This document shows positions 46,803-62,838 of a stretch of 64,000 nt of DNA, piece by piece; the stretch's first letter is position 1; every line of letters starts with the position of its first letter. The translations under genes were made by a program, and so were the position numbers. The notes below the pieces were generated by a model, which was given only the letters and a program-made list of their open reading frames with translations, made no database searches and was not told the origin of the DNA. The DNA is from Flavobacterium saliperosum (GTDB lineage Bacteria > Bacteroidota > Bacteroidia > Flavobacteriales > Flavobacteriaceae): assembly GCF_900100625.1 (NCBI RefSeq), contig NZ_FMTY01000003.1:193424-257423 (forward strand), given 5' to 3'.

Positions 46803-48578
46803 ATGATACTTCAACAAATTCTTACGGAAAAAATCCAGAAAGCAGTTCAGGATTTATTTGATGTTACACTCGAAAAAGTGGAATTTCAGGCTACCCGTCG
46901 GGAATTTGAGGGAGACATAACGGTAGTGATTTTTCCGCTATTGAAACTGGTGAAAAGCAACCCGGTGGAATTGGGGAATAGAATTGGGGATTATTTGGTT
47001 CAGAACGTAGCTGAAGTAGACCGTTTTAATGTGGTTTCCGGTTTTTTGAACATCGTGATTTCCGATGCGTATTATCTGAATTTCTTCAACGAAATTAAAA
47101 ATACCAACAACTTCGGTTTCGTAACTCCAAAAGAGGATGCCAAAGCCATTATGGTTGAGTTTGCTTCACCCAATACCAACAAACCGTTGCATTTAGGACA
47201 CGTGAGAAACATTCTTTTGGGATCTTCCGTAGCTGAAATCATTAAAGCTTCGGGTAAAAAAGTATACAAAACCCAAATTATCAACGACCGTGGCATCCAT
47301 ATCTGTAAATCGATGTTGGCCTGGCAAAAATTCGGAAACGGAGAAACACCTGAGACATCTGGTTTAAAAGGCGATAAATTGGTTGGGAAATATTATGTAG
47401 AATTCGATAAGGCTTATAAAACCGAAATTGCTGCTTTAATGGCGCAAGGCAAATCGGAAGAAGAAGCCAAAAAACAAGCACCCATGATTCTGGAAGCACA
47501 GCAAATGCTTTTGGACTGGGAAGCCGGAAAACCTGAAGTGGTAACGCTTTGGAAGACCATGAACCAATGGGTATACGATGGTTTCGCAGTTACTTATAAC
47601 GGTTTGGGTGTAGATTTCGATTCGTATTATTACGAAAGCAACACCTATTTGTTAGGAAAAGAAGTGGTGCAGTTCGGATTGGAAAAAGGCATTTTCGAAA
47701 AAGATCCAGACGGTTCGGTTTGGATTGATTTAACCGAGGATGGTTTAGACCGAAAAATAGTATTGCGTTCGGACGGTACAGCCGTTTACATGACGCAGGA
47801 TATCGGAACCGCGATTCAGCGTGTGAAAGACAATCCGGATGTGGGCGGAATGGTCTATACCGTAGGAAACGAACAGGATTACCACTTTAAAGTATTGTTC
47901 CTGATTCTGAAAAAATTAGGTTTCGACTGGGCCGAAGATTTATATCATTTATCGTACGGAATGGTGGAATTGCCTTCCGGAAAAATGAAATCCCGTGAAG
48001 GAACCGTGGTAGATGCCGATGATCTAATTGAAGAAATGGTGGTAACCGCACGAGAAATATCGGAAGAATTAGGAAAACTGGAAGGCTATTCCGAAGAGGA
48101 AAAAGCGAAGTTATACACTACCATCGGAATGGGGGCGTTGAAATATTACATGCTGAAAGTGGATCCGAGAAAAGGAATGATGTTCAATCCGGAAGAATCG
48201 GTTGATTTTGCCGGAAACACGGGGCCTTTTATTCAGTATACCTATGCGCGAATCCAATCGATTTTAAGAAAAGCCGATTTCGATTTGAGCAAAGACGTTG
48301 TGGTGGAAATCCACGAAAAGGAAAAAGAATTATTGAAACAAATTGAGGCATTCCCGGTTGTCATTCAGGATGCGGCCAAAAACCACAGTCCGGCTCTGAT
48401 AGCCAATTATACCTACGATTTGGTCAAAGAATACAACTCGTTTTATCAGTCGGTTTCCATTTTAGGCGAAGAAGACGAAATGAAGAAAATCTTCCGCGTG
48501 CAATTGTCTAAAAAAGTAGGCGAAGTAATTAAATCGGCATTTGGTTTGCTAGGAATCACGGTGCCGGAGAGAATGTAA
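46803..48578 (+). CDS. argS: Arginyl-tRNA synthetase
   Basis: 591 residues. Class I signatures: EFASPNTNKPLHLGHVRN (the HIGH equivalent) and GKMKSREGTVVDADDL (KMSKS equivalent). The N-terminal additional domain (residues 1-110) and the C-terminal anticodon-binding DALR domain (NTGPFIQYTYARIQSI and later SVSILGEEDEMKK) are present. Essential charging enzyme in the cytoplasm. Followed by a repeat-bearing gap of 97 bases before the SGNH genes, so those need not be co-transcribed. Confidence 0.97.
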   Translation: MILQQILTEKIQKAVQDLFDVTLEKVEFQATRREFEGDITVVIFPLLKLVKSNPVELGNRIGDYLVQNVAEVDRFNVVSGFLNIVISDAYYLNFFNEIKNTNNFGFVTPKEDAKAIMVEFASPNTNKPLHLGHVRNILLGSSVAEIIKASGKKVYKTQIINDRGIHICKSMLAWQKFGNGETPETSGLKGDKLVGKYYVEFDKAYKTEIAALMAQGKSEEEAKKQAPMILEAQQMLLDWEAGKPEVVTLWKTMNQWVYDGFAVTYNGLGVDFDSYYYESNTYLLGKEVVQFGLEKGIFEKDPDGSVWIDLTEDGLDRKIVLRSDGTAVYMTQDIGTAIQRVKDNPDVGGMVYTVGNEQDYHFKVLFLILKKLGFDWAEDLYHLSYGMVELPSGKMKSREGTVVDADDLIEEMVVTAREISEELGKLEGYSEEEKAKLYTTIGMGALKYYMLKVDPRKGMMFNPEESVDFAGNTGPFIQYTYARIQSILRKADFDLSKDVVVEIHEKEKELLKQIEAFPVVIQDAAKNHSPALIANYTYDLVKEYNSFYQSVSILGEEDEMKKIFRVQLSKKVGEVIKSAFGLLGITVPERM

Positions 48579-48584
48579 ATAAAA

Positions 48585-48670
48585 AGTAGTTAGTTGAGAG
48601 TAATTAGTAGTTAGTAAAAATAGAAAGAGGGAATACCTAACTCCTAACGACTAATCCCTAACACCTGAAT
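48585..48670. repeat. Paired inverted 7-nt repeat arrays after argS
   Basis: Left array 48585-48619: five heptamers AGTAGTT, AGTTGAG, AGTAATT, AGTAGTT, AGTAAAA. After a 16-base spacer comes 48636-48670: CCTAACT, CCTAACG, ACTAATC, CCTAACA, CCTGAAT. The right array is broadly the reverse complement of the left (AGTTAGG versus AGTAGTT), so the RNA could fold back with many mismatches. It starts seven bases after the argS stop and reaches to within 5 bases of the next ATG. Confidence 0.75.
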
Positions 48671-48675
48671 ATAAA

Positions 48676-50127
48676 ATGAATCAAAATAAATCATACTTTG
48701 TTCCATCGCTCACAATTTTTGCAGTTTCCATAGCGGCATTTTTGGTGTTCAAATCGTTCTTGCCGAAGAAATTGTTTTCCGAAAGTACGGTTAACGCTAA
48801 AAATGTGGTGATCGACAGTCTGCTTTTGGAGGCAATCGAAGAAGAAAATACTGCCGAAGAAGGCGATACCCTTTCCAATCAGCCTATTTCTTTTGCAGCG
48901 GTTGACGGTATCACGTTTCCTGATGAGACTTTTAGCGATTACAGGGGTTTTCAGCATTTAGTGCAATTTTATGAAAAACTGTATCAGTTGGAAACCACGC
49001 AGCAAGGCAATGTACGTATCGCGTATTTTGGCGATTCGATGACCGACGGCGACATGATTGTGCAGGATTTCAGAACGAATTTCCAGAACGAATTTGGCGG
49101 CCAGGGCGTAGGTTTCGTGAACATCACTTCCGAATCCGCAGCGTCGCGTAATTCCATCAAACACGAATTTTCACCAAACTGGAAAACACAATCCTATCTG
49201 AACGTAAAAAATCCGAGAAAACCTTTCGGCGTAAACGGACATGTGTTTTTCGCGAATGATACCGCAAACGTGGAGTGGGTAAAATACAAAGCAAGTAAAA
49301 TTAAAAACCTTACGGAACTCTACAATCCGACGCTTTTCTACGGAAAATCATCCAATAAGAGTGGTAAAATTGCGTTGAAAGTTGGCAACGATACGATTTA
49401 CAAAAAATTGTCGCCCAACAAATTGGTGAATACACTAGTAATCGGAAACACCACCAAAAACCTGAAAGTCGATTTCATAAAAGCGGATTCGATTCCGGTT
49501 TACGGATTGAATTTCGATGACGGAAAAGGTGTTCACGTGGATAACTTCTCGAATCGAGGGAATTCCGGTTTGCCGATTTCAACCTTCAATACCGAAGTAA
49601 TGCGTCAGTTTCAGGAGAAATTAGGCTACGATTTAATCGTTTTGCATTACGGAACCAATGTGTTGAATTACGGTTCTTTAAATTACACCTGGTACGAAAA
49701 GCGCATGAAAAAAGTGGTGAATCATTTGAAAGAATGCTTTCCCGGTGTAGCCATTTTGATTATTTCCACGGCAGACAAATCCACGAAATACGATTTGGAA
49801 ATGAAAACCGATTCGGCAGTGGTTCCATTATCGACAGCACAGAAAAAATACGCGATTCAGTCGCAAGCCGGTTTCGTGAATTTATACACCTTAATGGGAG
49901 GGGACGGTTCGATGGTGAAATGGGTGGAAGAAACGCCGGCTTCGGCCAATAAGGATTATACCCATTTTAATTATCGCGGGGCCAAACGGATTTCGTCGTT
50001 AGTGTACGATCAGATTTACGGTGGGTATCAGCAATTCAAAAAACTGCGTGCCAACAGAAAACCAGTAAAGCCAGCTGTTAAGAGAGACAGTGTAACCGTT
50101 AAAACAGACAGTGTTCATGTGGAATAA
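48676..50127 (+). CDS. SGNH/GDSL-family protein, membrane anchored
   Basis: 483 residues. One N-terminal transmembrane helix (about 8-28), a low-complexity acidic linker and a SGNH domain. The nucleophile is S121 in IAYFGDSMTDGDM and the Asp-His pair is D427/H430 (KDYTHFNYRG); a GTNVLNYG segment in between supplies the Asn of block III. An inserted beta-rich region lies between blocks I and III (about 150-310). Its 3' end overlaps the next SGNH gene by 11 bases and the MBOAT gene follows, as in AlgJ/AlgX-AlgI modules. Probable O-acetyltransferase or esterase acting on an exported polymer; acceptor unknown. Confidence 0.8.
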   Translation: MNQNKSYFVPSLTIFAVSIAAFLVFKSFLPKKLFSESTVNAKNVVIDSLLLEAIEEENTAEEGDTLSNQPISFAAVDGITFPDETFSDYRGFQHLVQFYEKLYQLETTQQGNVRIAYFGDSMTDGDMIVQDFRTNFQNEFGGQGVGFVNITSESAASRNSIKHEFSPNWKTQSYLNVKNPRKPFGVNGHVFFANDTANVEWVKYKASKIKNLTELYNPTLFYGKSSNKSGKIALKVGNDTIYKKLSPNKLVNTLVIGNTTKNLKVDFIKADSIPVYGLNFDDGKGVHVDNFSNRGNSGLPISTFNTEVMRQFQEKLGYDLIVLHYGTNVLNYGSLNYTWYEKRMKKVVNHLKECFPGVAILIISTADKSTKYDLEMKTDSAVVPLSTAQKKYAIQSQAGFVNLYTLMGGDGSMVKWVEETPASANKDYTHFNYRGAKRISSLVYDQIYGGYQQFKKLRANRKPVKPAVKRDSVTVKTDSVHVE

Positions 50128-51538
50128 ATTGCTCCTATTGTTTTCCGGATTGCTCTTTTCCGTAACGCTGTCCGCCCAAGTGATTGATTCTACCACGGTG
50201 GAAGTCGATACGCTGGGAATGGAAGCGAAGCTGAGTTACGGAGAAAATGCGATTTCCAATACCAAAGCGATAGATCGTTTTTTTGAAAAATTGTACGTCC
50301 TTGAAACGGCTAAAACCGGAAAAGTGCGTGTGGTTCATATTGGAGATTCCCACATTCAGGCCGATTTGTTTACGGGTGTTATCCGAAAAAAGCTTCAGGA
50401 TACATTCGGAAACGGCGGGTTGGGATTTTCCTTTCCGCACAATTTGGCAAAAACCAACGGCAGTCACTACATCCGTTATTCTTCCAACGAATCGTGGAAT
50501 AATCACCGGTTGACTAAAGAAAAAAACGGCAGTCCGATTGGTTTAAGCGGCATTTCATTGACGACCCGGGCGAAAGATTTTGCATTGGAAATCAACGTAA
50601 AAGACAACGCCTACCAATTCAATACGCTAAAAATCGTCACTCCGGAAAATACTCCGATGTTCGATGTGGCCACGAGTTCCAAAACCATTGTGCTGGAATC
50701 GAAAGTGCCGAAGAAAATCGTACATAAAATCAAAAATGGGGAAGCGATTTCCATCATCGCCGACAAATACAATATTTCCGTAGCCGAATTGAAACGTGCC
50801 AACGGTTTGAAATCGGATAAGATCCGTGCCGGAAAAACGCTGAAGATCCCAACGAATGAAATGCAGAAACGAAGCCTTAAACGTTCGGAATTTATTCCGC
50901 TTTCGCTGAATGAGGAAGCTCAAGCGCACTCGTTTTATTCGGAAACCCTTATGGATAAAATCTACCTGATTCCGAATAAAAAAGCCACTGCTTTCGCTTT
51001 GAACGGATTGGTTTTTGAAAGAAACGAACCCGGAATCACGTACAGTGCCATTGGTGTAAATGGTGCCAAAGCGTCTGACTATAACAAATATCCGTTGTTT
51101 TTCGAACAGGTTGCCGCATTAGAAGCAGATTTGATAATCGTCTCCCTGGGAACAAATGAAACGTTTGATAAAATGCCGGTTCAGGATTATATGAACGTGC
51201 TTAATGCATTTATTGCCACTATCAAAACCAAGAATCCGAATGCGGAAGTTTTGGTGTTGTCGACGCCGCCTTCCTTGTTGTACCGTCGTTCCCTGAATCG
51301 TTTTGCCGATGAGTATGCACGTGCCATCAATACGCAGGCGACCACGGTGAATCACGCTGCTTATGATTTGTTTGCGATTATGGGCGGGATGTATGGTGTG
51401 AACCGAAATTACCGTCAGGGTTTGATGTCGGGGGACAAAGTGCATTATTCCAAAGCCGGTTACGAAAAACAAGGTGCCCTTTTCAGTGAAGCGTTGCTGA
51501 ACGCCTACGAGAATTTTAAAGTAAATAAGAAAAATTAA
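50117..51538 (+). CDS. SGNH/GDSL-family protein with an inserted LysM domain
   Basis: 473 residues from the ATG at 50117; a GTG six bases before also fits. MWNKLLLLFSGLLFSVTLSAQ is a clean signal peptide. The nucleophile is S78 in VVHIGDSHIQAD, block III GTNETF follows and D440/H443 (GDKVHYSKAG) complete the triad. A LysM domain (about 201-246: IKNGEAISIIADKYNISVAE, then RAGKTLKIPT) sits inside the SGNH insertion, pointing to peptidoglycan or another GlcNAc polymer as binding partner. Overlaps the first SGNH gene by 11 bases and is followed by MBOAT after one base: a three-gene unit. Confidence 0.82.
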   Translation: MWNKLLLLFSGLLFSVTLSAQVIDSTTVEVDTLGMEAKLSYGENAISNTKAIDRFFEKLYVLETAKTGKVRVVHIGDSHIQADLFTGVIRKKLQDTFGNGGLGFSFPHNLAKTNGSHYIRYSSNESWNNHRLTKEKNGSPIGLSGISLTTRAKDFALEINVKDNAYQFNTLKIVTPENTPMFDVATSSKTIVLESKVPKKIVHKIKNGEAISIIADKYNISVAELKRANGLKSDKIRAGKTLKIPTNEMQKRSLKRSEFIPLSLNEEAQAHSFYSETLMDKIYLIPNKKATAFALNGLVFERNEPGITYSAIGVNGAKASDYNKYPLFFEQVAALEADLIIVSLGTNETFDKMPVQDYMNVLNAFIATIKTKNPNAEVLVLSTPPSLLYRRSLNRFADEYARAINTQATTVNHAAYDLFAIMGGMYGVNRNYRQGLMSGDKVHYSKAGYEKQGALFSEALLNAYENFKVNKKN

Positions 51539-51539
51539 T

Positions 51540-53225
51540 ATGCAGGATTGGTTTACCCAAAATATAGCCTCACTCTTTACAAATTTAACTGCCGAAACGG
51601 TTACCGACTGGTTTGTTTACAATCCGAAGGAACCGATTTTGTTCAATACCGGTTTGTTCCTTGGAATGTTCCTGATTTTCTACAGTTTTTACATTACGCT
51701 TAAAAATACGTTTTATCCGCGTTTGGTATATGTAATCCTGTTCTCCTTGTTTTTCTATTACAAATCGAGCGGTGTTTTCTTTTTGTTGTTGCTGGGTTCT
51801 TCGATAGTCGATTATAATTTAGGGAATCTGGTCCACCGCACGCAAAGCGTACTGAATAAGAAATTGTGCCTGGCCTTCAGTGTGGTGTTGAATTTAGGCT
51901 TTTTAGGGTATTTCAAATACACGAATTTCATCATTGATACCTATAATTCGGTTTCCGACGGGCATTTCGAATTTCAGAAAATCATCCTTCCGGTGGGGAT
52001 TTCGTTCTATACGTTCCAGTCGATAAGTTACATCATTGAGATTTACCGTAAGGAAATAGAGCCCACGAAAAGCTATGTGGATTACCTGTTTTTCGTATCG
52101 TTCTTCCCGCAGTTGGTAGCCGGACCTATTGTTCGTGCCAAAGATTTCCTGCCGCAGATTTATCAGAAATTAAACGTGACCAAAGACGATATCAACCGCG
52201 CCTTTCTGTTGATTATTGGCGGATTGATTAAGAAAACGGTGATTTCCGATTACATTTCGATCAATTTCGTGGATCGTGTTTTTGACGCACCTTCCGCATA
52301 TACCGCTTTCGAAAATTTAATGGCCTCTTACGGGTATGCGATTCAGATTTACTGTGATTTCTCCGGATATTCCGATATGGCGATTGGGGTGGCTTTGTTG
52401 TTAGGATTCAAATTACCCACGAATTTCAGAACACCGTATCAGTCGGCATCGATTACCGAATTCTGGAGAAGATGGCACATTTCGTTGTCCACCTGGTTGA
52501 AAGACTTTTTATACATCTCGGTAGGGGGTAACCGTAACGGAACCTTTGCCGGATTTTTATTCCCAGCCTTGTTCTTTTTCGGATTGATTGTTTGGGGCAT
52601 CACGTATGCGCCAACCAGTAATGTTCCTTTGATTATAGCAATTGGTTCCACCGTTCTTTTTGCCCTGACGTTTTTATTGTCTAAGGAAAAAGAGCGTACT
52701 ATGTTTACCAATGTCAACCTGATGACCACCATGTTATTGGGCGGATTGTGGCACGGCGCGAGTTTGCGTTTCATCATTTGGGGCGCTTTGCACGGAATGG
52801 GACTGGCAGTTCATAAAATCATCATGGAGTTTTTTCCATCCAAAAAAGAGGAGAAAAAATCATTTTTCGGATACGTTTGGTTGGTGATTTCGGTACTGAT
52901 AACGTTTCATTTCGTAACCTTCTGTTGGATTTTCTTCCGTGCGAAAGATTTTACCATTGCTTTGGAATTAATCAACAACATAGGAAAAGTAACTTTTGAT
53001 TGGGAACAATGGATGGTTATTGCTCAAGGGTATAAAAATGTATTTTTGTTGATGGCTATCGGTTTTTCATGGCATTATTTACCCGAAAAAATGATTAATG
53101 CGATGCAATCGGTCTTCAAATCACTCCCGATTATTGTAAAAGCACTCGTGTTAGGATTGGTTTATTGGCTGGTGTATGCCACTGCTTCTGCGGGGCCTCA
53201 GCCTTTCATTTATTTTCAGTTTTAA
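51540..53225 (+). CDS. MBOAT family O-acyltransferase (AlgI-like)
   Basis: 561 residues with about twelve transmembrane helices. MBOAT marks are YCDFSGYSDMAIGVALLLGF, the pattern WRRWHISLSTWLKDFLYI and the two conserved histidines of LWHGASLRFIIWGALHG (H405 and H418). These enzymes pass acetyl groups from cytoplasmic acetyl-CoA to the periplasm. The gene starts one base after the LysM-SGNH stop. With two SGNH partners this is a complete O-acetylation-type module. The C-terminal FIYFQF equals that of the partial MBOAT at 1-396. Confidence 0.93.
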   Translation: MQDWFTQNIASLFTNLTAETVTDWFVYNPKEPILFNTGLFLGMFLIFYSFYITLKNTFYPRLVYVILFSLFFYYKSSGVFFLLLLGSSIVDYNLGNLVHRTQSVLNKKLCLAFSVVLNLGFLGYFKYTNFIIDTYNSVSDGHFEFQKIILPVGISFYTFQSISYIIEIYRKEIEPTKSYVDYLFFVSFFPQLVAGPIVRAKDFLPQIYQKLNVTKDDINRAFLLIIGGLIKKTVISDYISINFVDRVFDAPSAYTAFENLMASYGYAIQIYCDFSGYSDMAIGVALLLGFKLPTNFRTPYQSASITEFWRRWHISLSTWLKDFLYISVGGNRNGTFAGFLFPALFFFGLIVWGITYAPTSNVPLIIAIGSTVLFALTFLLSKEKERTMFTNVNLMTTMLLGGLWHGASLRFIIWGALHGMGLAVHKIIMEFFPSKKEEKKSFFGYVWLVISVLITFHFVTFCWIFFRAKDFTIALELINNIGKVTFDWEQWMVIAQGYKNVFLLMAIGFSWHYLPEKMINAMQSVFKSLPIIVKALVLGLVYWLVYATASAGPQPFIYFQF

Positions 53226-53276
53226 TTTTAATAAAATATTAAGTTAGCAAAAATTATCATAATTCATTTTTTTTTC

Positions 53277-53284
53277 TACATTTG
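53277..53284 (+). promoter_or_regulatory. Candidate -7 box TACATTTG close to the start of the Cys-rich gene
   Basis: Exact TAnnTTTG match ending only five bases before the ATG at 53290. If used, transcription would start at or next to the start codon. Confidence 0.4.
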
Positions 53285-53289
53285 AAGCA

Positions 53290-53622
53290 ATGAAATTTTT
53301 GACAGCGATATTAACTTTTTATTTTGTGCTTCTGATGGGGACACCAACTTTGCGTGTGGTAAAGTCTCATATGAAAGCGCATTGTACGGCTACGGCTAAA
53401 AAAGGATGTTGTCAGAAAGAAGAAATACCCGAAGGCTGTCAGAAAGAAAAATGTGTGCTGAACATGAATTTTTCGGCAGGACAGTTCATCGTGCAACAGA
53501 TTCAGAACCTTTCAATACCAATTGAATTTGAAACGGAAAAAAAAGAAAACCTGATTTACGAAAAATCGTTTATACCCAATTATTATAATACGTTTTGGCA
53601 TCCTCCGGAAGGCATTTCCTAA
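53290..53622 (+). CDS. Cys-rich small exported protein (HYC_CC_PP-like)
   Basis: 110 residues: a hydrophobic N-terminus (3-20) and a Cys cluster H31-C32, C40-C41, C50, C55, then FIPNYYNTFWHPP near the end. The HC, CC and PP features remind me of the HYC_CC_PP family of Bacteroidota, often near metal efflux genes; this is from memory and not checked. The paralogue at 54114 shares PEGC, NFS and FIP-Y-NT-WHPP. Probable role: metal (copper-like) binding or sensing in the envelope. First gene of a run of small exported proteins. Confidence 0.6.
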   Translation: MKFLTAILTFYFVLLMGTPTLRVVKSHMKAHCTATAKKGCCQKEEIPEGCQKEKCVLNMNFSAGQFIVQQIQNLSIPIEFETEKKENLIYEKSFIPNYYNTFWHPPEGIS

Positions 53623-53689
53623 ATCCGAGATTACAAATTCAAAATAAACAAAATAAAAAATCAATAAATTAATTTTAAAAAATATCAAT

Positions 53690-53881
53690 ATGAAAAATAT
53701 CGTAGCAATTTTAGCAGTAGCATTATTTACAGTTTCAATGAATGTAAATGCACAAGAGAAAAAAACCAGCGGACCTGCTAAAAAAGAAGCAACCACTAAA
53801 AAAGAAGAATGCTCTAAAGAAGAGAAAAAAGCTTGCTCAACAGGTGAGAAAAAAGCTTGTTGTTCTGCAAAAAAAGCATAA
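53690..53881 (+). CDS. Small exported Lys/Cys-rich protein, 63 residues
   Basis: Signal peptide of about 21 residues (MKNIVAILAVALFTVSMNVN then AQ) and a mature part of about 42 residues made of Lys/Glu with four cysteines (C41, C49, C57, C58). No fold is recognised; low complexity suggests a disordered, metal-chelating periplasmic peptide. It has a clean start, a strong terminator behind it and lies between two related Cys-containing genes, which supports expression. Function inferred only. Confidence 0.65.
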   Translation: MKNIVAILAVALFTVSMNVNAQEKKTSGPAKKEATTKKEECSKEEKKACSTGEKKACCSAKKA

Positions 53882-53902
53882 TTCTTTAAGATTACCAGTA
53901 AG

Positions 53903-53931
53903 ACGCCTCGAGAAATCGAGGCGTTTTTTTT
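53903..53931 (+). terminator. Rho-independent terminator with GAAA loop
   Basis: ACGCCTCGA and TCGAGGCGT pair perfectly around GAAA, followed by eight T. It ends the first Cys-rich pair of genes. Confidence 0.92.
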
Positions 53932-54113
53932 GCTTTGTAACATAAGTTACAGATTATTGTTTATAAAATTATAATTTCACCAAGATTCTAAAAGTAGAAT
54001 ACTGCTTTTTTTTCGGTTTAGAGAAAAATCTGTTTAGGAAATTCTTTAGTGGTATTCATGGAATAATCCTAACGTGTTGGTGTAAAGTATATTAAAATTC
54101 ATATATTAGGATT

Positions 54114-54449
54114 GTGAAATTTTTGGTCTACATAGTATGTGCTTATCTGATTGTACTGACGGCGTTGCCTTCGGTGCGGTCTGTTAAGTTGCATCACATT
54201 GGGTCGAAAGCACTTTCTTGTGAAAAAAAATCCTCAAGTAGCAGTTTTCCTGAGGGTTGTGAAAAAAGTAAATTCATAACCAGTTTAAATTTCAGTCCGC
54301 TACAGTTTGTAAGCGAATTACGGTTGACTCCAGATCCTTTTATTCTGGAAGCCGCTATCGGAAAAAACCAGTCCCATTACGAGAAGATATTTATCCCTAA
54401 ATATCAGAATACGATATGGCACCCTCCCAAGACTTCTTCTTTGCTATAA
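54114..54449 (+). CDS. Paralogue of the Cys-rich exported protein at 53290
   Basis: 111 residues starting with GTG (MKFLVYIVCAYLIVLTALPS). It aligns with 53290-53622 along its whole length: the PSVRSVKLH segment, FPEGCEKSK, LNFSPLQF and FIPKYQNTIWHPP. The CC pair and two other Cys are lost; only C9, C36 and C49 remain, and a Ser run replaces part of the Cys region. So the paralogue keeps the scaffold but not most of the thiols. Likely related but different ligand use; not assigned. Confidence 0.6.
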   Translation: MKFLVYIVCAYLIVLTALPSVRSVKLHHIGSKALSCEKKSSSSSFPEGCEKSKFITSLNFSPLQFVSELRLTPDPFILEAAIGKNQSHYEKIFIPKYQNTIWHPPKTSSLL

Positions 54450-54525
54450 ATTAAATTCTCAATTATTATTAATGATGTCGGTTACTGTTTTATTCGGTTT
54501 CGGACACACTTATTTATACCTAATT

Positions 54526-54879
54526 ATGAAGTCTATACTATCAATTTCAATAATGCTGTTTGGTCTGGCGTTTTTATGTTTGGGAAGCCAGTCCGCCACC
54601 ATCCAATCTTCAAAATATTCTTTAGAAAAAGAAACGCCTTTCGCATTGGCACATTCTCAAGCCAACAAAGTTGTAACATCCGAAAGTTGTGTTCGTTGTC
54701 ATGATTGTTCGGGAACCAATTTAGAAAATGACGAAACAATTCAAAACATTGTGACCCCTTCCCGTATCGGTGTTGAAAAAGCCGCGGATCAAGAATCAAC
54801 ATCGGAATCGGTTTTTGATGACACCCCAACTGTAAAACCGGAAGTGGCAGATCGTTTTGTTCAAAGGGAATTAAATTAA
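54526..54879 (+). CDS. Small exported protein with a CxxCH motif
   Basis: 117 residues from ATG 54526 (MKSILSISIMLFGLAFLCLG signal); an in-frame ATG at 54472 would add 18 residues before the signal. The mature part has C55-V-R-C58-H59-D-C61, which matches the CxxCH haem c attachment pattern and also a simple metal site; nothing else resembles a cytochrome. The C-terminal half is acidic and polar. It stands seven bases before the kelch/T9SS gene, so the two are likely co-transcribed. Confidence 0.6.
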   Translation: MKSILSISIMLFGLAFLCLGSQSATIQSSKYSLEKETPFALAHSQANKVVTSESCVRCHDCSGTNLENDETIQNIVTPSRIGVEKAADQESTSESVFDDTPTVKPEVADRFVQRELN

Positions 54880-54886
54880 AGTACAG

Positions 54887-56488
54887 ATGAAAAATTATAT
54901 TTACATAGTGCTGCTGCTGTTTGCAAGTCATTCCGCATTGGCTCAAAGCACCTTTGCTTACGATGTGGTGCTTACACCGGTAACAGTTTCCGGTTTGCCG
55001 GGATTGCATTCGTATGCCTTTGCCCAATCGAACGGAAAATGGCTGATTATCGGTGGAAGAAAAGACGGAATTCACGCACGCCAGCCTTTTAACGCTTTTC
55101 CGGGTGCCCAAAACAATACCGACATTTATGTGGTTGATATCGCAACGCAACAATCGTGGTCGGCTTCTTTAAATTCTTTGCCAACTGGAATCAAGGAACA
55201 ATTGCAATCCACCAACATGAATTTTCATCAGGATGGGGATGCGTTGTACATTATCGGCGGGTATGCTTTTTCCGTTACGGCAAATGACCATAAAACCTTT
55301 ACTAATCTGACATCGGTTAATGTTCCCGGTCTGATCAATGCCATCATAGCCGGCACACCCATAGCGTCTTATTTTAAGCAGATTTCCAATGATGTTTTCG
55401 CCATAACGGGCGGGCAATTGGCAAAAATAGACGGTACCTTTTATCTGGTGGGAGGACACCGTTTCGACGGACGGTACAATCCGATGGGCAACCCAACATT
55501 TACACAGACCTATTCCAATCAGATCCGGAAATTTACCATCGACAACTCAGGAACCCAATTAAGTTATGCCAATTATCAGGAGATTACGGATGCGGTTCAT
55601 TTGCATCGTCGGGATTACAATCTGTTGCCTCAGGTGTTTCCGGACGGCGAGTTGGGATACACCATTTCATCCGGCGTTTTTCAGATTAATGCCGATTTAC
55701 CTTTTTTATACCCTGTGGATATTAAGAGCGGAGGGTACTTTCCGCAAACACAGTTCAATCAATATCTGAGTAATTATCATAGCGGGAAAGCCTGTTTGTA
55801 TGATCAAACCGAAAACAGTATGCACAATTTGTTTTTCGGAGGAATAAGTCAGTATTATTATCAGAACGGAACTTTGATACAGGATGACACCGTTCCGTTT
55901 GTGAAAACAATAAGCAGAACTACGCGCTCGGCTGACGGGACTTTAACCGAATACCAGTTGCCTGTAGAAATGCCAAGCCTGAAAGGATCGGGCGCCGAGT
56001 TTATTATGAGCACTAATTTACCTCATTATTCCAACGAAGTGATTAAGCTCAGTGATATTACGGCAGATGAGTTTGTAATCGGGCATCTTTACGGCGGAAT
56101 CCAAAGTTCTTCCAAATCGGCCTTTACAGACAATCAGGTAAATTTAACCAGTGCCGATCCTACGGTTTATGAGGTTAAATTAATCAAAAACCCGGCTTTG
56201 AGTGTTGCGGAAATTGATGGCAGCAATCCTTATTCCTTTACGGTTTCACCCAATCCGACCACATCAGATGATGTTAATGTGGAGTTCACACTAATAAAAG
56301 AAGTGCCTCTGGACTATTTGATATCTTCTTTAGATGGTAAGATTATTGAAAATGGTGAAATTGTAGGGACCAATATTGGCTTGAATACCATGAGTTTCGG
56401 TTTATCCAAAGCTAAGACCAATGTGGTAATCATCACGTTTGTTTTTGATAATAAGTATTTCGTTTCCCGCAAGGTAATCCGCAAGTAA
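54887..56488 (+). CDS. Kelch-like secreted protein with type IX sorting domain
   Basis: 533 residues with signal peptide (MKNYIYIVLLLFASHSALAQ). Kelch-type blades are seen at WLIIGGRKDG, LYIIGGYAFS and FYLVGGHRFDG, each with the paired Gly, so the body is probably a beta-propeller. The last 80 residues (YSFTVSPNPTTSDDVNVEF ... VSRKVIRK) are a type A C-terminal signal for the type IX secretion system, with the PNPT motif. Destination: cell surface or medium. Ligand or enzyme activity unknown. Last gene of the run, followed by a terminator. Confidence 0.85.
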   Translation: MKNYIYIVLLLFASHSALAQSTFAYDVVLTPVTVSGLPGLHSYAFAQSNGKWLIIGGRKDGIHARQPFNAFPGAQNNTDIYVVDIATQQSWSASLNSLPTGIKEQLQSTNMNFHQDGDALYIIGGYAFSVTANDHKTFTNLTSVNVPGLINAIIAGTPIASYFKQISNDVFAITGGQLAKIDGTFYLVGGHRFDGRYNPMGNPTFTQTYSNQIRKFTIDNSGTQLSYANYQEITDAVHLHRRDYNLLPQVFPDGELGYTISSGVFQINADLPFLYPVDIKSGGYFPQTQFNQYLSNYHSGKACLYDQTENSMHNLFFGGISQYYYQNGTLIQDDTVPFVKTISRTTRSADGTLTEYQLPVEMPSLKGSGAEFIMSTNLPHYSNEVIKLSDITADEFVIGHLYGGIQSSSKSAFTDNQVNLTSADPTVYEVKLIKNPALSVAEIDGSNPYSFTVSPNPTTSDDVNVEFTLIKEVPLDYLISSLDGKIIENGEIVGTNIGLNTMSFGLSKAKTNVVIITFVFDNKYFVSRKVIRK

Positions 56489-56512
56489 AAATTTTAAAAA
56501 ACAATCATCAGT

Positions 56513-56539
56513 AAAAGACACCTTTTTTGGGTGTCTTTT
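56513..56539 (+). terminator. Terminator after the kelch/T9SS gene
   Basis: AAAAGACACC and GGTGTCTTTT pair around a T-rich loop, with a T-rich tail. It separates the Cys-rich cluster from the RND operon. Confidence 0.85.
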
Positions 56540-56666
56540 GTTTTACAGATGTTTTTAGTATTGGTACTAGTGGCCTTTTGTAATGTTTTTTCATATAAGC
56601 ATTCTAGTGTTTAGTGGATTCGAGAGGAGTGTAACACTTGTTACTGACTATACTTTTTGTCCGTCA

Positions 56667-56674
56667 TACATTTG
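56667..56674 (+). promoter_or_regulatory. Candidate -7 box TACATTTG for the RND operon
   Basis: Exact TAnnTTTG match 27 bases before the TolC-family ATG at 56702. No TTTG at the right distance upstream. Confidence 0.5.
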
Positions 56675-56701
56675 CTTCATAATCAGAGATAAGTAAATGT
56701 T

Positions 56702-58015
56702 ATGAAAAATAAAATTCAACTGTTATTATTAGGATTCCTTGTTTTTACGCAAGTGATGATGGCGCAGGATACGCTGCGTATTTCCAAAAACGATTTGTGG
56801 CAGAAAGCTTCCGAAAAGAACTTACAGCTCAAAATCGCCAATCAGGAATTCAAATCCGCTCAGGCCGATTATCGCCAGTCGAATTCGCTTTTCTTACCGA
56901 GTATCTCCGCTTCGCATACGGCCATGACCACGACCAATCCGTTAATGGCTTTCGGTTCGAAACTGAATCAGGAGATTTTAACCGCAGCCGATTTCAACCC
57001 GGCGTTACTGAATGATCCTAATCAGACCCAAAATTACGCAACCAAAATTGAAGTCTTGCAACCGATAATCAATGTGGACGGAATTTACGGCAGACAGGCG
57101 GCCAAAGCGAAGATGGAAGCCTATCAGTTGCAAACCGAGCGTTCCAAAGAATACCTGGAACTGGAATTGAGCAAAGCGTTTATGCAGTTGCAATTGGCAT
57201 ATAAAGCGGTAACGGTTTTGGAAAAAGCAAATACTACTTCCGAAGCGACACTTAAATATGTAGAGAACAATTTCAAACAAGGGTACCTGCAAAAAACCGA
57301 TGTATTGTCTGTTCAGGTGCGTGTAAATGAAGTGAAAAACCAACTGCAATACGCCAAAAGTAATGTACAGAATGCTTCCGATTATTTAGCGTTTCTGCTT
57401 CAGGAAGACATGACCGGAAAAGTATACCAGCCCACAGAAGCTTTGGAAAACACCATCGCGGTGACTTCGGTAACGGCAACATTGTCTGACAACCGTAAAG
57501 ATCTTCAGGCGATGAACAAGTCCAGTGAGGCGTATCGTAAAATGATGCAGTCCGGAAAAATGAGTTTTCTTCCGCGTTTGAACGCTTTCGGAGCGTATGA
57601 ATTATACGATACTAAAATTTTCGGAATGGCAGCCAACGGTTATACGGTAGGCGCACAATTGTCATGGTCCTTATTCGACGGGTACAAGTCCGTGGGAAAA
57701 CTTCAGAAAGCAAAAGCCGATTTCCAGAAATCCGAATTGGAGCTGAAACAGTACAAAGCACAAAGTCAGCTGGAACTGAACAAAACCAACCGTCAGTTAT
57801 TGGACGCCGAAAATAAAGTGAACCTTTCGAAACTGGCTTTCGAACAATCTCAGGAAGCGCAAAGAATCCGAAAAAACCGATTCACACAAGGTCTTGAAAA
57901 AACCACCGATGTATTGCAATCGGAAACCCAAGTGGCCCAAAAAGAACTGGAATATTTGCAAGCCGTTTTCGAATACAATTTCACCCAACAATACCAACAA
58001 TTTCTAACAAAATAA
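56702..58015 (+). CDS. TolC family outer-membrane efflux protein
   Basis: 437 residues with signal peptide (MKNKIQLLLLGFLVFTQVMM then AQ). Two long coiled-coil repeats with the TolC/OEP pattern: ANQEFKSAQADYRQSNSLFL, LELSKAFMQLQLAYKAVTVL, and in the second half LELNKTNRQLLDAENKVNLS, RIRKNRFTQGLEKTTDVLQS. It forms the trimeric outer-membrane channel of the tripartite pump. First gene of the operon; the adaptor follows after ten bases. Confidence 0.93.
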   Translation: MKNKIQLLLLGFLVFTQVMMAQDTLRISKNDLWQKASEKNLQLKIANQEFKSAQADYRQSNSLFLPSISASHTAMTTTNPLMAFGSKLNQEILTAADFNPALLNDPNQTQNYATKIEVLQPIINVDGIYGRQAAKAKMEAYQLQTERSKEYLELELSKAFMQLQLAYKAVTVLEKANTTSEATLKYVENNFKQGYLQKTDVLSVQVRVNEVKNQLQYAKSNVQNASDYLAFLLQEDMTGKVYQPTEALENTIAVTSVTATLSDNRKDLQAMNKSSEAYRKMMQSGKMSFLPRLNAFGAYELYDTKIFGMAANGYTVGAQLSWSLFDGYKSVGKLQKAKADFQKSELELKQYKAQSQLELNKTNRQLLDAENKVNLSKLAFEQSQEAQRIRKNRFTQGLEKTTDVLQSETQVAQKELEYLQAVFEYNFTQQYQQFLTK

Positions 58016-58025
58016 ATAACCAACC

Positions 58026-59111
58026 ATGAATAGAATCAGTAAATCTTTAATGATAATCGGAACCGCTGTTTTAGTGGCGAATTGTTCCGGCGATAAGAAA
58101 CAGGAAGCTGTTACACAACCGACAGTTTCCGTAAAAGTGAGTACGCCTTCCGGTGATTCAGGCAGTCCGTTTGTAACCGCCAGCGGAAAAATTGAAGCCG
58201 AAAACAGTGCCAACTTAAGTACCCGAATGATGGGGTATGTAACCAAAGTGAACGTAAAAGTTGGTCAGAATGTAAAAGCCGGGCAACTTTTGGTAACGGT
58301 GAACAGTACCGATTTACAGGCGAAAAAAGCACAGGTGGACGCTTCCATTATTCAGGCAGAAGCCGCTTATAAAAATGCGAAGAAAGATTACGATCGTTTC
58401 GTAAACCTGTACAGTCAGCAAAGTGCGTCGCAAAAAGAACTGGACGATATGACGGCGCGTTACGAAATGGCAAAAGCCGGACTCGAAGCCGCACGACAAA
58501 TGCGAAATGAAGTACTGGCGCAGTTTTCCTATTCGAACATAACCGCTCCGTTTTCAGGTGTAGTAACTAATACGTTTGTGAAAGAAGGCGACATGGCGAA
58601 TCCGGGGATGCCGTTAGTGAGCATCGAAGGTTCGGGACGTCTCCAGGTAACCGCGATGGTTTCGGAATCGGACATCACCTCCATCAAAAACGGAATGCCG
58701 GTGAAAGTATTGGTGAAATCCTCCAACAAGGAACTAACTGGGAATGTATCGGAAATAAGTTTGTCGGCTAAAAATACAGGAGGACAATATTTAGTAAAAG
58801 TGAATTTGGATAAAACGGATGCGGCTACCTTATCCGGCATGTTTGTCAACGTACACTTTCCTGTTGAAAAAACGGTTAAAACAACCGAAAGCGATGTGGT
58901 TTTAGTACCCGAAAGCGCTTTGGTGAAACAGGGTCAGTTGACCGGAGTTTATGTGGTTGGGTCCAATAACACCGCGCTATTGCGTTGGATTAAAACCGGG
59001 AAATCGTTCGGGAATCAGGTAGAAGTGCTATCCGGCTTAAATGCTTCTGAAAGTTATGTTACTGAAGCCGAAGGGAAATTGGTTAACGGAGCGAAAATCA
59101 GTATTCAGTAA
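58026..59111 (+). CDS. RND efflux periplasmic adaptor subunit (lipoprotein)
   Basis: 361 residues. Signal with lipobox VANC (C20). The half-motifs GQNVKAGQLLVTVNSTDLQA and FSYSNITAPFSGVVTNTFVK form the split lipoyl domain around a coiled-coil hairpin (about 95-160); beta-barrel and membrane-proximal domains follow with VPESALVKQGQLTGVYVV. It couples the permease with TolC. No metal-binding His/Met-rich segment is visible, so metal specificity is not supported by this protein. Confidence 0.92.
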   Translation: MNRISKSLMIIGTAVLVANCSGDKKQEAVTQPTVSVKVSTPSGDSGSPFVTASGKIEAENSANLSTRMMGYVTKVNVKVGQNVKAGQLLVTVNSTDLQAKKAQVDASIIQAEAAYKNAKKDYDRFVNLYSQQSASQKELDDMTARYEMAKAGLEAARQMRNEVLAQFSYSNITAPFSGVVTNTFVKEGDMANPGMPLVSIEGSGRLQVTAMVSESDITSIKNGMPVKVLVKSSNKELTGNVSEISLSAKNTGGQYLVKVNLDKTDAATLSGMFVNVHFPVEKTVKTTESDVVLVPESALVKQGQLTGVYVVGSNNTALLRWIKTGKSFGNQVEVLSGLNASESYVTEAEGKLVNGAKISIQ

Positions 59112-59150: not shown

Positions 59151-62100
59151 ATGCAAGAAGGTATTTCAGGAAAAATAGCCAATTTCTTCATCAACTCAAA
59201 ACTAACCATCTTGTTGATGGTGGCGTTGATGATGATAGGCGTATACAGCTCGTTCTTAATTCCGAGGGAAGAAGAACCGCAAATTAATGTTCCGATGGCC
59301 GACGTAATGGTAGGTTATCCGGGAGCCAGCCCAGCCGAAGTGGAAAGCCGTGTGGTAAAACCGCTGGAGAAAGTGATTTCCAATATCAAAGGGGTGGAGC
59401 ACGTACACAGTATGGCCATGAACGGTCAGGCGATGTTGATTGTTCAGTTTTATGTGGGTGAAGACATCGAACGCTCGTATGTGAAATTGTACGACGAATT
59501 GAATAAAAATGCCATGAATATGCCGCAAGGCGTGATGCAACCGATGGTAAAAACACGTTCCATAGACGATGTTCCGATGCTGGGACTGACCTTGTGGAGC
59601 GAAAAATACGATGATTATCAGTTACGTCAGATTGCCGGTGAGTTAACCAACGAAATCGAGAAAGTAAAGGACGTAGCCATTACCAATAAAATCGGAGGAA
59701 GAAACCGCGAACTGAAAGTAGTTTTGGACAAAGACAAGTTAGCTGAAAATGGAATCGATGCGCTTTCGGTAGTGCAGATGATCCAGGCCAACAATCAGCA
59801 ATCGCAGTCCGGAAGTTTTGTAAGCAAAGACCAAGAGTATCTTTTAACTACAGGGAATTTTTTAACCTCGGATGAAGATGTGGAGAATCTGGTTGTGGGT
59901 GTAAACAAAAACATGCCGGTGTATTTAAAACAGGTGGCGGCCGTTCAGGACGGACCTTCATCGCCAAAAAGCTACGTCTCTTTTGGATACGGAACCGGAA
60001 ATGAGGCGCGAGCGAAAAACACTTCGGAATATCCCGCGGTAACCATTTCGGTAGCCAAAGTGAAAGGTGCCGATGCGATGAAAATCTCCGAGAAAATCAT
60101 CACGAAAGTAGAAGCATTAAAGAAAACATTGATTCCGAGTGACGTTCACGTGGAAGTGACCCGTAACTACGGCGAAACCGCGTCGCATAAAGTAGGCGAG
60201 TTGTTGCTGCACCTGGGTGTTGCGATTATTGCCGTGACGCTTTTGGTAATGTTTGCCATGGGATGGCGCGGCGGATTGGTGGTTTTCTTCTCCGTACCGC
60301 TAACGTTTGCACTGACGCTTTTCAGTTATTATTTATTAGGATATACCTTAAACCGAATCACCCTTTTTGCCCTGGTGTTCGTGGTGGGAATTGTGGTGGA
60401 TGACAGTATTATCATCGCCGAAAACATGCACCGTCACTTTAAAATGAAGCGACTGCCGTTCAAACAGGCTGCGATTTATGCGATTAATGAAGTCGGAAAT
60501 CCTACTATTCTGGCGACATTTACGGTTATTGCGGCTATTTTACCGATGGCTTTCGTATCGGGAATGATGGGGCCATACATGAGTCCGATGCCGATTGGCG
60601 CTTCCATTGCGATGATCTTGTCGTTGTTCGTTGCCTTGACAGTAACACCTTATCTGGGGTATCATTTGCTTCAGGAAAAGGACGAACAAAAACATAAAGA
60701 GGAGCAAGGTCTTGAAACCAGTTGGATTTATAGAATCTACAATAAGGTGGAGCGTCCGTTTTTGGAAAGTTCCAAAAAGCGTCTGATTATGTTCGGCATT
60801 ACGATTGTATTGTTATTGGGTTCGGTACTGATGTTCTTTACCAAATCGGTAGCCGTGAAAATGCTGCCTTTCGATAACAAGAACGAATTCCAGGTGGTCA
60901 TCGATATGCCGGAAGGAACTACGTTGGAACGCACTGCAGCGGTAACGAAAGAAATTGCGCAATACCTTTCCGGGCGCCCTGAAGTGGTGAGTTATCAGAA
61001 TTATGTCGGAACCTCGGCACCAATTACCTTTAACGGACTGGTGCGTCATTACGACCTGCGTGGCGGAAGTAATATGGCCGATATTCAGGTGAATCTGCTG
61101 CATAAGGAAGACCGAAGCGAACAGAGTCACGACATCGCGAAAGCCGTGCGTCCGGAGATTCAGAAGATTGCCAAAAAATACGGTGCGAATGTGAAAGTGA
61201 TTGAAGTGCCGCCGGGACCACCGGTTTTGTCAACTTTGGTAGCCGAAATTTACGGACCGAATTATGAAGAGCAGATTGAAGTCGCCAATCAGGTGAAAAC
61301 CATACTGGAATCGACGTCTGATATCGTGGATGTAGATTGGATGACCGAAGACAATCAGACCGAATACAAACTCGAAGTTGATAAGGAAAAAGCCATGTTG
61401 TACGGTGTAGCGCCTCAACAAGTTGTTGCTACATTAACCACAATCATGAAAGAATATCCGGTTTCCCGATTGTACGATGAAAATTCAAGCGACAATATCG
61501 GAATCGTATTGGCTTTGGATGATAACGAGAAAACGAGTCTGCAGGATATTCAGAACATTAAGATCAAATCGGCGCAAGGAACTATGATTCCGGTGAGCGA
61601 TCTGGTAAAAGTGAAAAATGAAACCCTGAAAAAAACGATTTACCGTAAAGACCAAAAACGCGTAGTGTATGTTACAGCGGATATGGCGGGAGTATTGGAA
61701 AGTCCGGTATATGCGATTTTGGGAATGAACGAGAAATTGCAGCAGATGAAACTGCCGAAAGGGTATAAAGTAAACGAACTGTACATGGAACAACCTTCGG
61801 ATGAAAGCGATTTCACCGTGAAATGGGATGGCGAATGGCAGATTACCCTGGAAGTGTTCCGTGATTTGGGAGCGGCCTTTTTAATCGTGATTATTGTGAT
61901 TTACATGCTGATTGTGGGCTGGTTCCAGAACTTCAAAACGCCGATTGTCATGATGATGGCCATTCCGCTATCGTTAATCGGAATTGTATTGGGTCACTGG
62001 TTGTTAGATGCTTTCTTCACCGCAACTTCCTTTATCGGAATGATTGCTCTGGCGGGAGTTATGGTGCGGAACTCGGTGCTGCTCATCGACTTTATCGAAA

Positions 62101-62339
62101 TCCGACTCAAAGAAGGAGCGCCTTTAAAACAAGCCATTATTGAAGCCGGAGCGGTACGAACCACCCCAATTTTATTAACAACCGGGGCCGTGGTAATCGG
62201 AGCTTCCATCATTCTGTTTGACCCGATTTTCCAAGGGTTGGCGATTTCACTGGTGGCCGGAGCGATTGTATCGACATTATTAACATTGATTGTAGTTCCG
62301 CTGATTTATTACATAACCGAAAAACATAAATACGAATAA
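59151..62339 (+). CDS. RND efflux transporter permease (AcrB/HAE-like)
   Basis: 1062 residues, twelve transmembrane helices with two large periplasmic loops. TM1 is followed by FLIPREEEPQINVPMADVMV and YPGASPAEVES. TM4 carries VVGIVVDDSIIIAEN with the Asp pair D417/D418 used for proton relay in drug-type (HAE) pumps; HME metal pumps have a different TM4 pattern. The C-terminal half repeats the fold (GMIALAGVMVRNSVLLIDFI). So the pump looks drug/organic type although small Cys-rich genes are nearby. A PII-like gene begins two bases after its stop. Confidence 0.93.
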   Translation: MQEGISGKIANFFINSKLTILLMVALMMIGVYSSFLIPREEEPQINVPMADVMVGYPGASPAEVESRVVKPLEKVISNIKGVEHVHSMAMNGQAMLIVQFYVGEDIERSYVKLYDELNKNAMNMPQGVMQPMVKTRSIDDVPMLGLTLWSEKYDDYQLRQIAGELTNEIEKVKDVAITNKIGGRNRELKVVLDKDKLAENGIDALSVVQMIQANNQQSQSGSFVSKDQEYLLTTGNFLTSDEDVENLVVGVNKNMPVYLKQVAAVQDGPSSPKSYVSFGYGTGNEARAKNTSEYPAVTISVAKVKGADAMKISEKIITKVEALKKTLIPSDVHVEVTRNYGETASHKVGELLLHLGVAIIAVTLLVMFAMGWRGGLVVFFSVPLTFALTLFSYYLLGYTLNRITLFALVFVVGIVVDDSIIIAENMHRHFKMKRLPFKQAAIYAINEVGNPTILATFTVIAAILPMAFVSGMMGPYMSPMPIGASIAMILSLFVALTVTPYLGYHLLQEKDEQKHKEEQGLETSWIYRIYNKVERPFLESSKKRLIMFGITIVLLLGSVLMFFTKSVAVKMLPFDNKNEFQVVIDMPEGTTLERTAAVTKEIAQYLSGRPEVVSYQNYVGTSAPITFNGLVRHYDLRGGSNMADIQVNLLHKEDRSEQSHDIAKAVRPEIQKIAKKYGANVKVIEVPPGPPVLSTLVAEIYGPNYEEQIEVANQVKTILESTSDIVDVDWMTEDNQTEYKLEVDKEKAMLYGVAPQQVVATLTTIMKEYPVSRLYDENSSDNIGIVLALDDNEKTSLQDIQNIKIKSAQGTMIPVSDLVKVKNETLKKTIYRKDQKRVVYVTADMAGVLESPVYAILGMNEKLQQMKLPKGYKVNELYMEQPSDESDFTVKWDGEWQITLEVFRDLGAAFLIVIIVIYMLIVGWFQNFKTPIVMMMAIPLSLIGIVLGHWLLDAFFTATSFIGMIALAGVMVRNSVLLIDFIEIRLKEGAPLKQAIIEAGAVRTTPILLTTGAVVIGASIILFDPIFQGLAISLVAGAIVSTLLTLIVVPLIYYITEKHKYE

Positions 62340-62341
62340 CG

Positions 62342-62647
62342 ATGAAAATGATGCTCATAACCTCCGTAAAAGCTTTTGAAGACAATATCAAATTGTTTTT
62401 AAAGGAAGCAGGAATTCAAAGTTATACCTATCAGGATGTTAACGGATTTAAAGACTGCTCCGGACTGTCCGTAAAGGATAACTGGTTTGCCAATGATAAG
62501 AGTGAGTGTGAATCGGTTTTGTTTCATGTTTTTACTGAACAAATTAAAACGGATGGTTTTCTTCAAAAAGCCAAAATGTTCAATGAAAAACAAGCGACAG
62601 CGAACGCTATTCATGCCGTAATAATTAACACAGATAAAACTTTATAA
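62342..62647 (+). CDS. PII-like (GlnB-fold) small protein
   Basis: 101 residues. The first half has the PII shape: KMMLITSVKAFEDNIKLFLK then AGIQSYTYQDVNGFKD, comparable to the beta1-alpha1-beta2 of GlnB with its GI--MT---V-GF pattern; the end has AIHAVIINTDK as the last strand. The T-loop is short and lacks the classical uridylylated Tyr and signature, as described for the PII new group (PII-NG) associated with metal transport genes. It starts two bases after the RND permease stop. Probable role: sensing a ligand and adjusting the pump. Similarity judged by eye only. Confidence 0.6.
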   Translation: MKMMLITSVKAFEDNIKLFLKEAGIQSYTYQDVNGFKDCSGLSVKDNWFANDKSECESVLFHVFTEQIKTDGFLQKAKMFNEKQATANAIHAVIINTDKTL

Positions 62648-62649
62648 TT

Positions 62650-62838
62650 ATGATAAACAGAATTGTTAGAGCCGTAGCCGGCACGTTTATACTGATCAGT
62701 TTGTTATTGGCAGTGTATGTCAATCAGAATTGGTTGTGGTTCACAGGATTTGTGGGAATCAATTTGCTTCAGTCGTCATTCACCAAATGGTGTCTGCTGG
62801 AAGACATTCTCCGAAAAGTCTTCAAGATTCAGGATTAA
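62650..62838 (+). CDS. DUF2892 family small membrane protein
   Basis: 62 residues with two hydrophobic segments: RIVRAVAGTFILISLLLAVY and WLWFTGFVGINLLQSSFTKW, then CLLEDILRKVF. The FxGxNLLQSxFTxWC pattern is typical of DUF2892 (inner membrane YgaP-like tail). Starts three bases after the PII-like stop, so it is the fifth gene of the RND operon. Function unknown; such proteins often accompany sulfur or metal related genes. A hairpin terminator follows. Confidence 0.85.
   Translation: MINRIVRAVAGTFILISLLLAVYVNQNWLWFTGFVGINLLQSSFTKWCLLEDILRKVFKIQD

Follow-up and report, generated by a model that had tools for sequence, protein, structure and literature searches.

Small exported cysteine proteins of Flavobacterium saliperosum as a possible envelope arm of a Crp/Fnr-family reactive-sulfur regulon

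Four small exported Cys-containing proteins are encoded side by side in the 64,000-nucleotide stretch of the Flavobacterium saliperosum genome analysed here (the window), and the locus raises the question of what such proteins do outside the cytoplasm and with which genes they work. An earlier note on this DNA had described them as one cluster that includes two paralogues, here named A and C, and the open reading frames agree with the description of the cluster. In the translations, A carries H31, C32, C40, C41, C50 and C55, and C has two Cys beyond residue 25. The features of the locus are the following.

53290..53622, + strand: A, exported Cys protein of the A-type subfamily (GCQKEKC), 110 aa (ORF, alignment, tree)
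53690..53881, + strand: K63, exported Lys/Cys peptide of 63 aa with four Cys (ORF, relatives)
53900..53927, + strand: terminator-like hairpin and T run 3' of K63 (consensus match only)
53937..53950, no strand: operator GTAACATAAGTTAC upstream of C (exact palindrome; the orthologous place in locus L045 of a relative also has an operator)
54114..54449, + strand: C, exported protein of the C-type subfamily with few Cys, GTG start, 111 aa (ORF, alignment, tree)
54526..54879, + strand: exported CxxCHDC protein, 117 aa (ATG at 54526; the ORF opens at 54472, 135 aa)
54887..56488, + strand: kelch-like exported protein, 533 aa (name tentative; no Pfam model above cut-off)
56516..56536, + strand: hairpin and then T run 3' of the kelch-like gene (read by eye; absent from the list of the terminator scan)
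56631..56644, no strand: operator GTAACACTTGTTAC upstream of TolC (exact palindrome)
56667..56674, + strand: TACATTTG, promoter element of the -7 type, placing the TolC operator at -41.5
56702..58015, + strand: TolC-type outer-membrane efflux protein (OEP model above cut-off)
58026..59111, + strand: RND periplasmic adaptor, MFP (TIGR01730 above cut-off)
59151..62339, + strand: RND permease, nearer multidrug-type than CusA-type (model scores, solved relatives)
62342..62647, + strand: small PG0541-like protein, weak (16.0 bits against a cut-off of 45)
62650..62838, + strand: YgaP-like transmembrane protein (PF11127, 50.3 against 25.3 bits)

Since the hairpin at 53900-53927 lies between A-K63 and C-CxxCH-kelch, these are probably separate transcription units and the cluster would comprise at least two; the genes from TolC through MFP, RND and the PG0541-like protein to YgaP look like a third. 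The region 52500-57000 gave no match to an RNA element in Rfam, and a scan for sigma70-type promoters, the wrong promoter type for this phylum, returned matches no commoner than in shuffled sequence. Upstream, the stretch 46803-53225 encodes an ArgS-like, two SGNH-like and one MBOAT-like protein (names given by eye), and the same gene order before the A/C gene is kept at 12 of 37 loci with A- or C-type genes (A/C loci), with ArgS as the gene counted.

The paralogy of A and C is borne out by an alignment over the full length with 38% identity (E 6e-21), in which PEGC, NFS and the FIP-Y-NT-WHPP end are common to both, and the two belong to separate subfamilies. A search of the same genome with A returned A and C, and two more matches at E 0.07 and 0.08 were not significant. 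In a tree of 70 rows, the A-type (19), C-type (25) and DUF6660-type (22) groups, which were defined by short motifs, each lay on one side of a supported branch, and four rows fell in none of them. The three groups remained on separate branches after the defining motifs had been masked, with SH-aLRT values of 91 for A, 87 for DUF6660 and only 27 for the C-type. This placement suggests an origin of A and C in two older lineages and not in a recent duplication, the separation being well supported only with the motif included. The loss of thiols on a kept scaffold, also noticed earlier, extends to the subfamilies, with a mean of 2.96 Cys in the C-type and 4.42 in the A-type, whose members retain three to six; only one Cys column is invariant among 22 aligned A/C rows.

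No curated family of Pfam or NCBIfam matched A or C above its cut-off. The proteins had earlier been likened to HYC_CC_PP (NF047658), and membership is contradicted by the scores, because A reached 16.1 bits against a curated 28, C gave no match and only 1 of the 22 A/C rows was matched by this model at E 1 or better. The likeness lies in small size, export, Cys content and a PP motif at the C-terminus, together with the weak match from A only. The true HYC_CC_PP gene of this genome lies at 8956-9387 of locus L192 (contig C19), away from the window locus; its neighbours, both identified by eye, are a receptor-like gene of 746 aa and a gene for an exported HMA-like protein. The DUF6660 model (PF20365, cut-off 27 bits) matched 2 of the 22 A/C rows at E 1 or better (best E 0.026) and nothing in the F. 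saliperosum genome at E 10. Comparison of the DUF6660 and A/C profiles with hhalign gave a probability of 98.7 (E 2.5e-16, 106 columns), a match carried mostly by the signal-like N-terminus and the C-terminal motif. The nearest named family of A and C is DUF6660, with kinship at the profile level only. The open-licence PMC papers searched gave no match for HYC_CC_PP or DUF6660, two AlphaFold models were too poor to be of use (mean pLDDT 48.2 and 42.3), and a sequence search of solved structures returned nothing for A or C.

A profile built from two rows, A and C, found matches in 95 of 299 genomes of the genus at E 0.01 or better, and by our own reading these consist of a strong group of 36 genomes and a weak group. 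Twenty-four loci fetched from the weak group, 21 of them with a DUF6660-type row, are called the DUF6660-group loci. Among 395 genomes of the order, A/C matches below E 1e-20 occurred only in Flavobacterium. Weak matches that lay outside the genus or had internal stops (L005, L012, L014) were discarded as chance, and L013 is a DUF6660-type row.

The gene order around these proteins is conserved, as the earlier note had proposed to check. A K63 relative follows the A-type gene in 17 of 19 rows (one row is at a contig end) and K63 relatives are found at 30/37 A/C loci, the 40 relatives having a mean of 4.2 Cys. The kelch-like gene comes next, or after one CxxCH gene, in all 25 C-type rows. This protein is present in 45 of the 299 Flavobacterium genomes, and it co-occurs with A/C-type genes (28/36 genomes with them versus 17/263 without, p 1e-20); a sequence search of solved structures found nothing convincing for it. 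Relatives of the CxxCHDC protein occur at L045, L054, L056, L059 and L078. A cytochrome c identity of the CxxCH protein was not indicated by Pfam, where no match was found, or by NCBIfam, where the best match was E 0.015, far below cut-off, and none reached E 0.001. In four other loci (L173, L176, L177, L179), ApbE/DUF3570-like genes lie on one side of the kelch-like gene and a two-component system on the other (names by eye); an exact operator accompanies the kelch-like gene in three of the four, and CusA-type pumps follow in three.

Beyond this core, the 37 A/C loci contained MBL-rhodanese genes resembling persulfide dioxygenase (PDO) at 9 loci, TauE at 2, YeeE-type genes at 4, SQR-like genes at 5 and cydAB at 4. 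Sulfur genes, counted as persulfide-dioxygenase-like, TauE, YeeE, rhodanese, Sox-like and SQR-like, were present at 16/37 A/C loci versus 3/40 control regions (p 4e-4) and at 9/17 kelch loci without a strong A/C gene (p 4e-4). Common descent of the loci and overlap within three pairs of control regions make the p-values of this analysis too small. The same count gave 2/20 stretches of the F. saliperosum genome and 0/24 DUF6660-group loci. The names of representatives were checked and other genes were assigned to them by BLAST; the names SQR, SoxB, PDO and TPMT rest on scores below curated cut-offs. The control regions were random draws from the contigs used for the A/C loci, one of which (G482) is without either type. 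A-type genes follow a PDO-like gene in PDO-FAM-K63 strings that have no kelch-like gene (L057, L067, L073) and lie inside Sox-like clusters in L054, L056 and L059. The window itself has no sulfur enzyme nearby save the YgaP-like membrane protein; the PDO-like gene of this genome sits on another contig, and an SQR-like gene was not found in the genome. A 679-aa neighbour, considered as the copper enzyme NosZ, proved to be a peptidase M13.

What connects the window with these sulfur genes is a palindrome, GTAACN4GTTAC, the one common to the intergenic regions of the window and the region upstream of the Crp-TauE-PDO string of the same genome. Exact copies in the window start at 53937 and 56631, both at this locus, and a one-mismatch match at 43229; because 14/100 shuffled windows reach three matches at that looseness, the count in the window alone proves little. 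In 503 kb of the 2.89-Mb genome (two of the stretches overlap by 4 kb), only five exact copies were found, upstream of C, TolC, the Crp-type regulator, the PDO-like gene and a rhodanese gene, and three of the five are in stretches fetched for PDO/rhodanese homology, chosen independently of the operator. The exact operator was absent at L189 and L190, two loci of this genome with rhodanese-like matches, and in 400 kb of contig C14 taken regardless of content. Exact sites numbered 49 (74.8 per Mb) in the 37 A/C loci, spread over 24 of them; a 700-kb control had three, all inside genes, and the 24 DUF6660-group loci had none.

Upstream sites, defined by at most one mismatch and a gene start within 200 bp downstream, were present at 30/37 A/C loci and 16/18 kelch loci (82 and 30 sites, respectively; median 59.5 bp to the start codon); the 700-kb control had 2 such sites, the 400 kb from the F. 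saliperosum genome had 1 and the DUF6660-group loci had 0. The genes behind them were mainly TolC (44), A/C-type (14), PDO (9), kelch (8), SQR-like (5) and cydA (5), followed by YeeE (4), Tll0287-like (4), DUF2202 (3), rhodanese (3), TauE (1), Crp (1) and a few others. Seven A/C loci had no upstream site (L047, L064, L067, L069, L071, L073, L075). The region upstream of A showed no operator in the window, and neither did that of its counterparts in L045, L046 and L047; the A-type genes of L066, L068, L074, L076 and L077 have the operator or its one-mismatch form. When the kelch lineages were clustered at 80% identity, 22 of 26 clusters, five of which lie outside the genus, had the operator and 13 had a sulfur gene, and 9 of the 22 with the operator were without a sulfur gene in the fetched stretch. 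The operator sequence is not new, because the same consensus, GTAACnnnnGTTAC, matched exactly at 53937 and 56631, has been published for HcpR2, where it stands upstream of hcp in HcpR2-containing genomes, Bacteroides included (Rodionov et al. 2005, PMC1274295). A description of the present gene set behind this operator was not found in the available text of the open-licence PMC papers searched.

Other small genes accompany some of these loci. The loci L061, L070, L078, L079 and L081 encode a small, divergent exported protein that combines KCNGKCH with a C-terminal HPP motif and adjoins a TonB receptor whose best model, tested for L061, is a copper receptor below cut-off, and the small gene has the operator or a variant upstream at four of the five loci, not at L070. 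DUF2202-type genes lie near A/C genes in L054, L056, L059, L061, L063 and L065 (domain confirmed for L054), and in L054, L056 and L059 a variant of the operator immediately precedes them. An HMA-like protein of about 90 aa (KCGGC; named by eye) is encoded near thioredoxin and K63/kelch genes in L171, L172, L174, L175 and L178, a hint of copper in addition to sulfur.

The position -41.5 is that of class II activation by Crp/Fnr proteins, and many of the promoters behind the operator have this geometry. Of the distinct sequences that fit GTRACN4GTYAC and have a gene downstream, 69 in all, 41 have TAnnTTTG beginning 27-29 bases away from the middle of the operator, and a single match was found at the same offset on the opposite side; further peaks at 46 and 51 bases accompany tandem sites 17 and 22 bp apart. 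As the first T of the promoter consensus is numbered -12 (PMC6847099), the operator is centred at -41.5. The TolC promoter of the window fits exactly. TAnnTTTG at the class II offset was not found for C in the window, which has a degenerate promoter element and an operator 170 bp from the start, or for the PDO-like gene of the same genome.

The candidate regulator is the Crp-type protein encoded beside TauE and PDO in this genome (L191, contig C14), with the operator 49 bp from its own start. Two Cys, six residues apart, are invariant in 10/10 of these Crp proteins and are a possible thiol sensor. The residue after the recognition-helix Arg is Val in this protein and in L068, L172, L174, L175 and L178, and Glu in L148, L169, L180 and L181. 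The half-sites tend to be GTGAC where the protein is of the Glu type (9 G : 7 A) and GTAAC where it is of the Val type (1 G : 15 A; p 0.006), a comparison of four Glu genomes with only two of the six Val genomes; the Val-type genomes L172, L174, L175 and L178 had only departing sites, for example with GTTAC or GCAAC halves. L148, one of the control regions, has a relative of the Crp gene together with a full GTGACN4GTCAC site 63 bp from a 424-aa gene. NtcA, which reads GTAN8TAC, is among the nearest solved regulators and has Arg-Val at the same place, and the present operator fits the NtcA pattern.

Reactive sulfur is what the gene neighbourhood and the common operator suggest in the first place. 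The reading that we prefer, with belief and doubt about evenly balanced, is that a Crp/Fnr-family regulon of Flavobacterium deals with reactive sulfur (sulfide, persulfide, thiosulfate) and that the cluster forms its envelope arm. The statistics support the view that C-CxxCH-kelch and the RND operon share one regulon with sulfide-handling genes, as judged from the DNA; for A-K63, membership would follow by kinship. The Crp protein beside TauE/PDO would sense sulfane sulfur through its two invariant Cys, read GTAACN4GTTAC and act from -41.5, an activator-type placement, in front of C-CxxCH-kelch, TolC-MFP-RND-YgaP, Crp-TauE-PDO-like and the rhodanese genes. Least certain are the parts outside the cytoplasm, where A, C, K63 and the CxxCHDC protein may accept sulfane sulfur, or alternatively hold a thiophilic metal that sulfide has made toxic or scarce, and where the RND pump may clear some product.

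The earlier note had favoured an envelope copper/zinc or thiol system, possibly working with the downstream RND pump. A link with the pump gains support from the same operator upstream of TolC, and the RND permease is present at 17/37 A/C loci. A metal-efflux function was rejected as first choice, because the permease scored 257.7 bits against a cut-off of 701 with the CusA/CzcA model (TIGR00914) and its nearest solved relatives are of the multidrug type, with the metal pump ZneA further down. Copper or soft-metal handling, in which A, C and K63 would bind Cu(I)/Zn outside the cytoplasm, nevertheless remains the main rival, although we consider it rather unlikely. It could even be joined to sulfide, which would remove copper and so call for a switch to the copper-free cytochrome bd and for copper scavenging, and the operators upstream of cydA in five places, the HMA-like proteins and the TonB receptor described above suit it, as does the profile kinship with DUF6660, whose group loci have fused CusA-type pumps in 20 of 24 cases. 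In the fetched stretches of the A/C loci, however, such pumps are found at 0/37, the mean His content of A- and C-type proteins (2.42 and 2.08) is below the 3.91 of the DUF6660 rows, the present RND pump is nearer to multidrug pumps, and no gene of the DUF6660-group loci has the operator upstream.

The small proteins could also accompany the kelch/RND operon as passengers and have a structural task, such as folding or anchoring the kelch-like protein, and their Cys would then form disulfides and not serve as ligands. The invariable C-kelch order, the few Cys of the C-type and the single invariant Cys column of the A/C rows agree with this explanation, which we nonetheless hold to be improbable, because A-type proteins occur in the PDO-FAM-K63 strings without kelch and keep three to six Cys, and the K63 relatives have 4.2 on average. 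Less probable still is control by a regulator of the HcpR2 type responding to nitric oxide or nitrite, which would make the locus a nitrosative-stress module and the sulfur genes secondary. The common consensus speaks for it, but according to PMC1274295 HcpR2 has Pro at position 181, where the Crp proteins here have Val or Glu (the placing of E. coli position 181 in them is our own reading), and the regulons of most Bacteroides species consist of hcp only, while here the named genes behind the operator are for the most part those for the pump, A/C and kelch, the sulfur genes and cydA. The division of labour once suggested for the paralogues, with A as metal binder and C as its Cys-poor decoy or chaperone, appears very improbable. 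The Cys counts do differ, and the window, L045, L054, L056 and L059 each have both types, but 32/37 A/C loci have one type only in the fetched stretch, and therefore C seems not to need A nearby.

A bolder form of the sulfur reading, which we regard as speculative, would have the Crp thiol sensor drive the sulfide response with a new envelope arm, in which two exported Cys lineages and K63 carry persulfides alongside the kelch-like protein and a dedicated RND pump expels a product of sulfur stress, on a scaffold shared with, or recruited from, the DUF6660 metal-efflux loci. If the sulfur reading is true, uncharacterised families of exported proteins would gain roles, an uncharacterised Flavobacterium RND pump would be tied to sulfur stress and not to metals or drugs, and sulfide detoxification in these common water and soil bacteria would have a named operator and regulator. 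The data also suggest that one small-protein scaffold serves in both metal-pump and sulfur loci.

Among known systems, the DUF6660 proteins resemble A and C in length, in the MKFL..IL..Y..L...P start, the Cys-rich middle and the Y..F.S.Y..SIWxPP end; they differ in CxPFCxCNCC-like motifs, more His and CusA-type neighbours, and the A/C rows lie across a supported branch from them. SqrR/BigR/YgaV and the SoxR of Hyphomicrobium are ArsR-type proteins. They regulate sulfide or sulfur-oxidation genes, as is proposed here, whereas the present candidate is of the Crp type and its regulon would include exported Cys proteins and an RND pump; in the parts of the open-licence PMC papers that were available, no described sulfide regulator was found for this group. 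The HcpR2 regulon (PMC1274295) is like the present one in its operator consensus and differs from it in that sulfur genes, kelch and RND stand behind the operator here and that the recognition helix has another residue.
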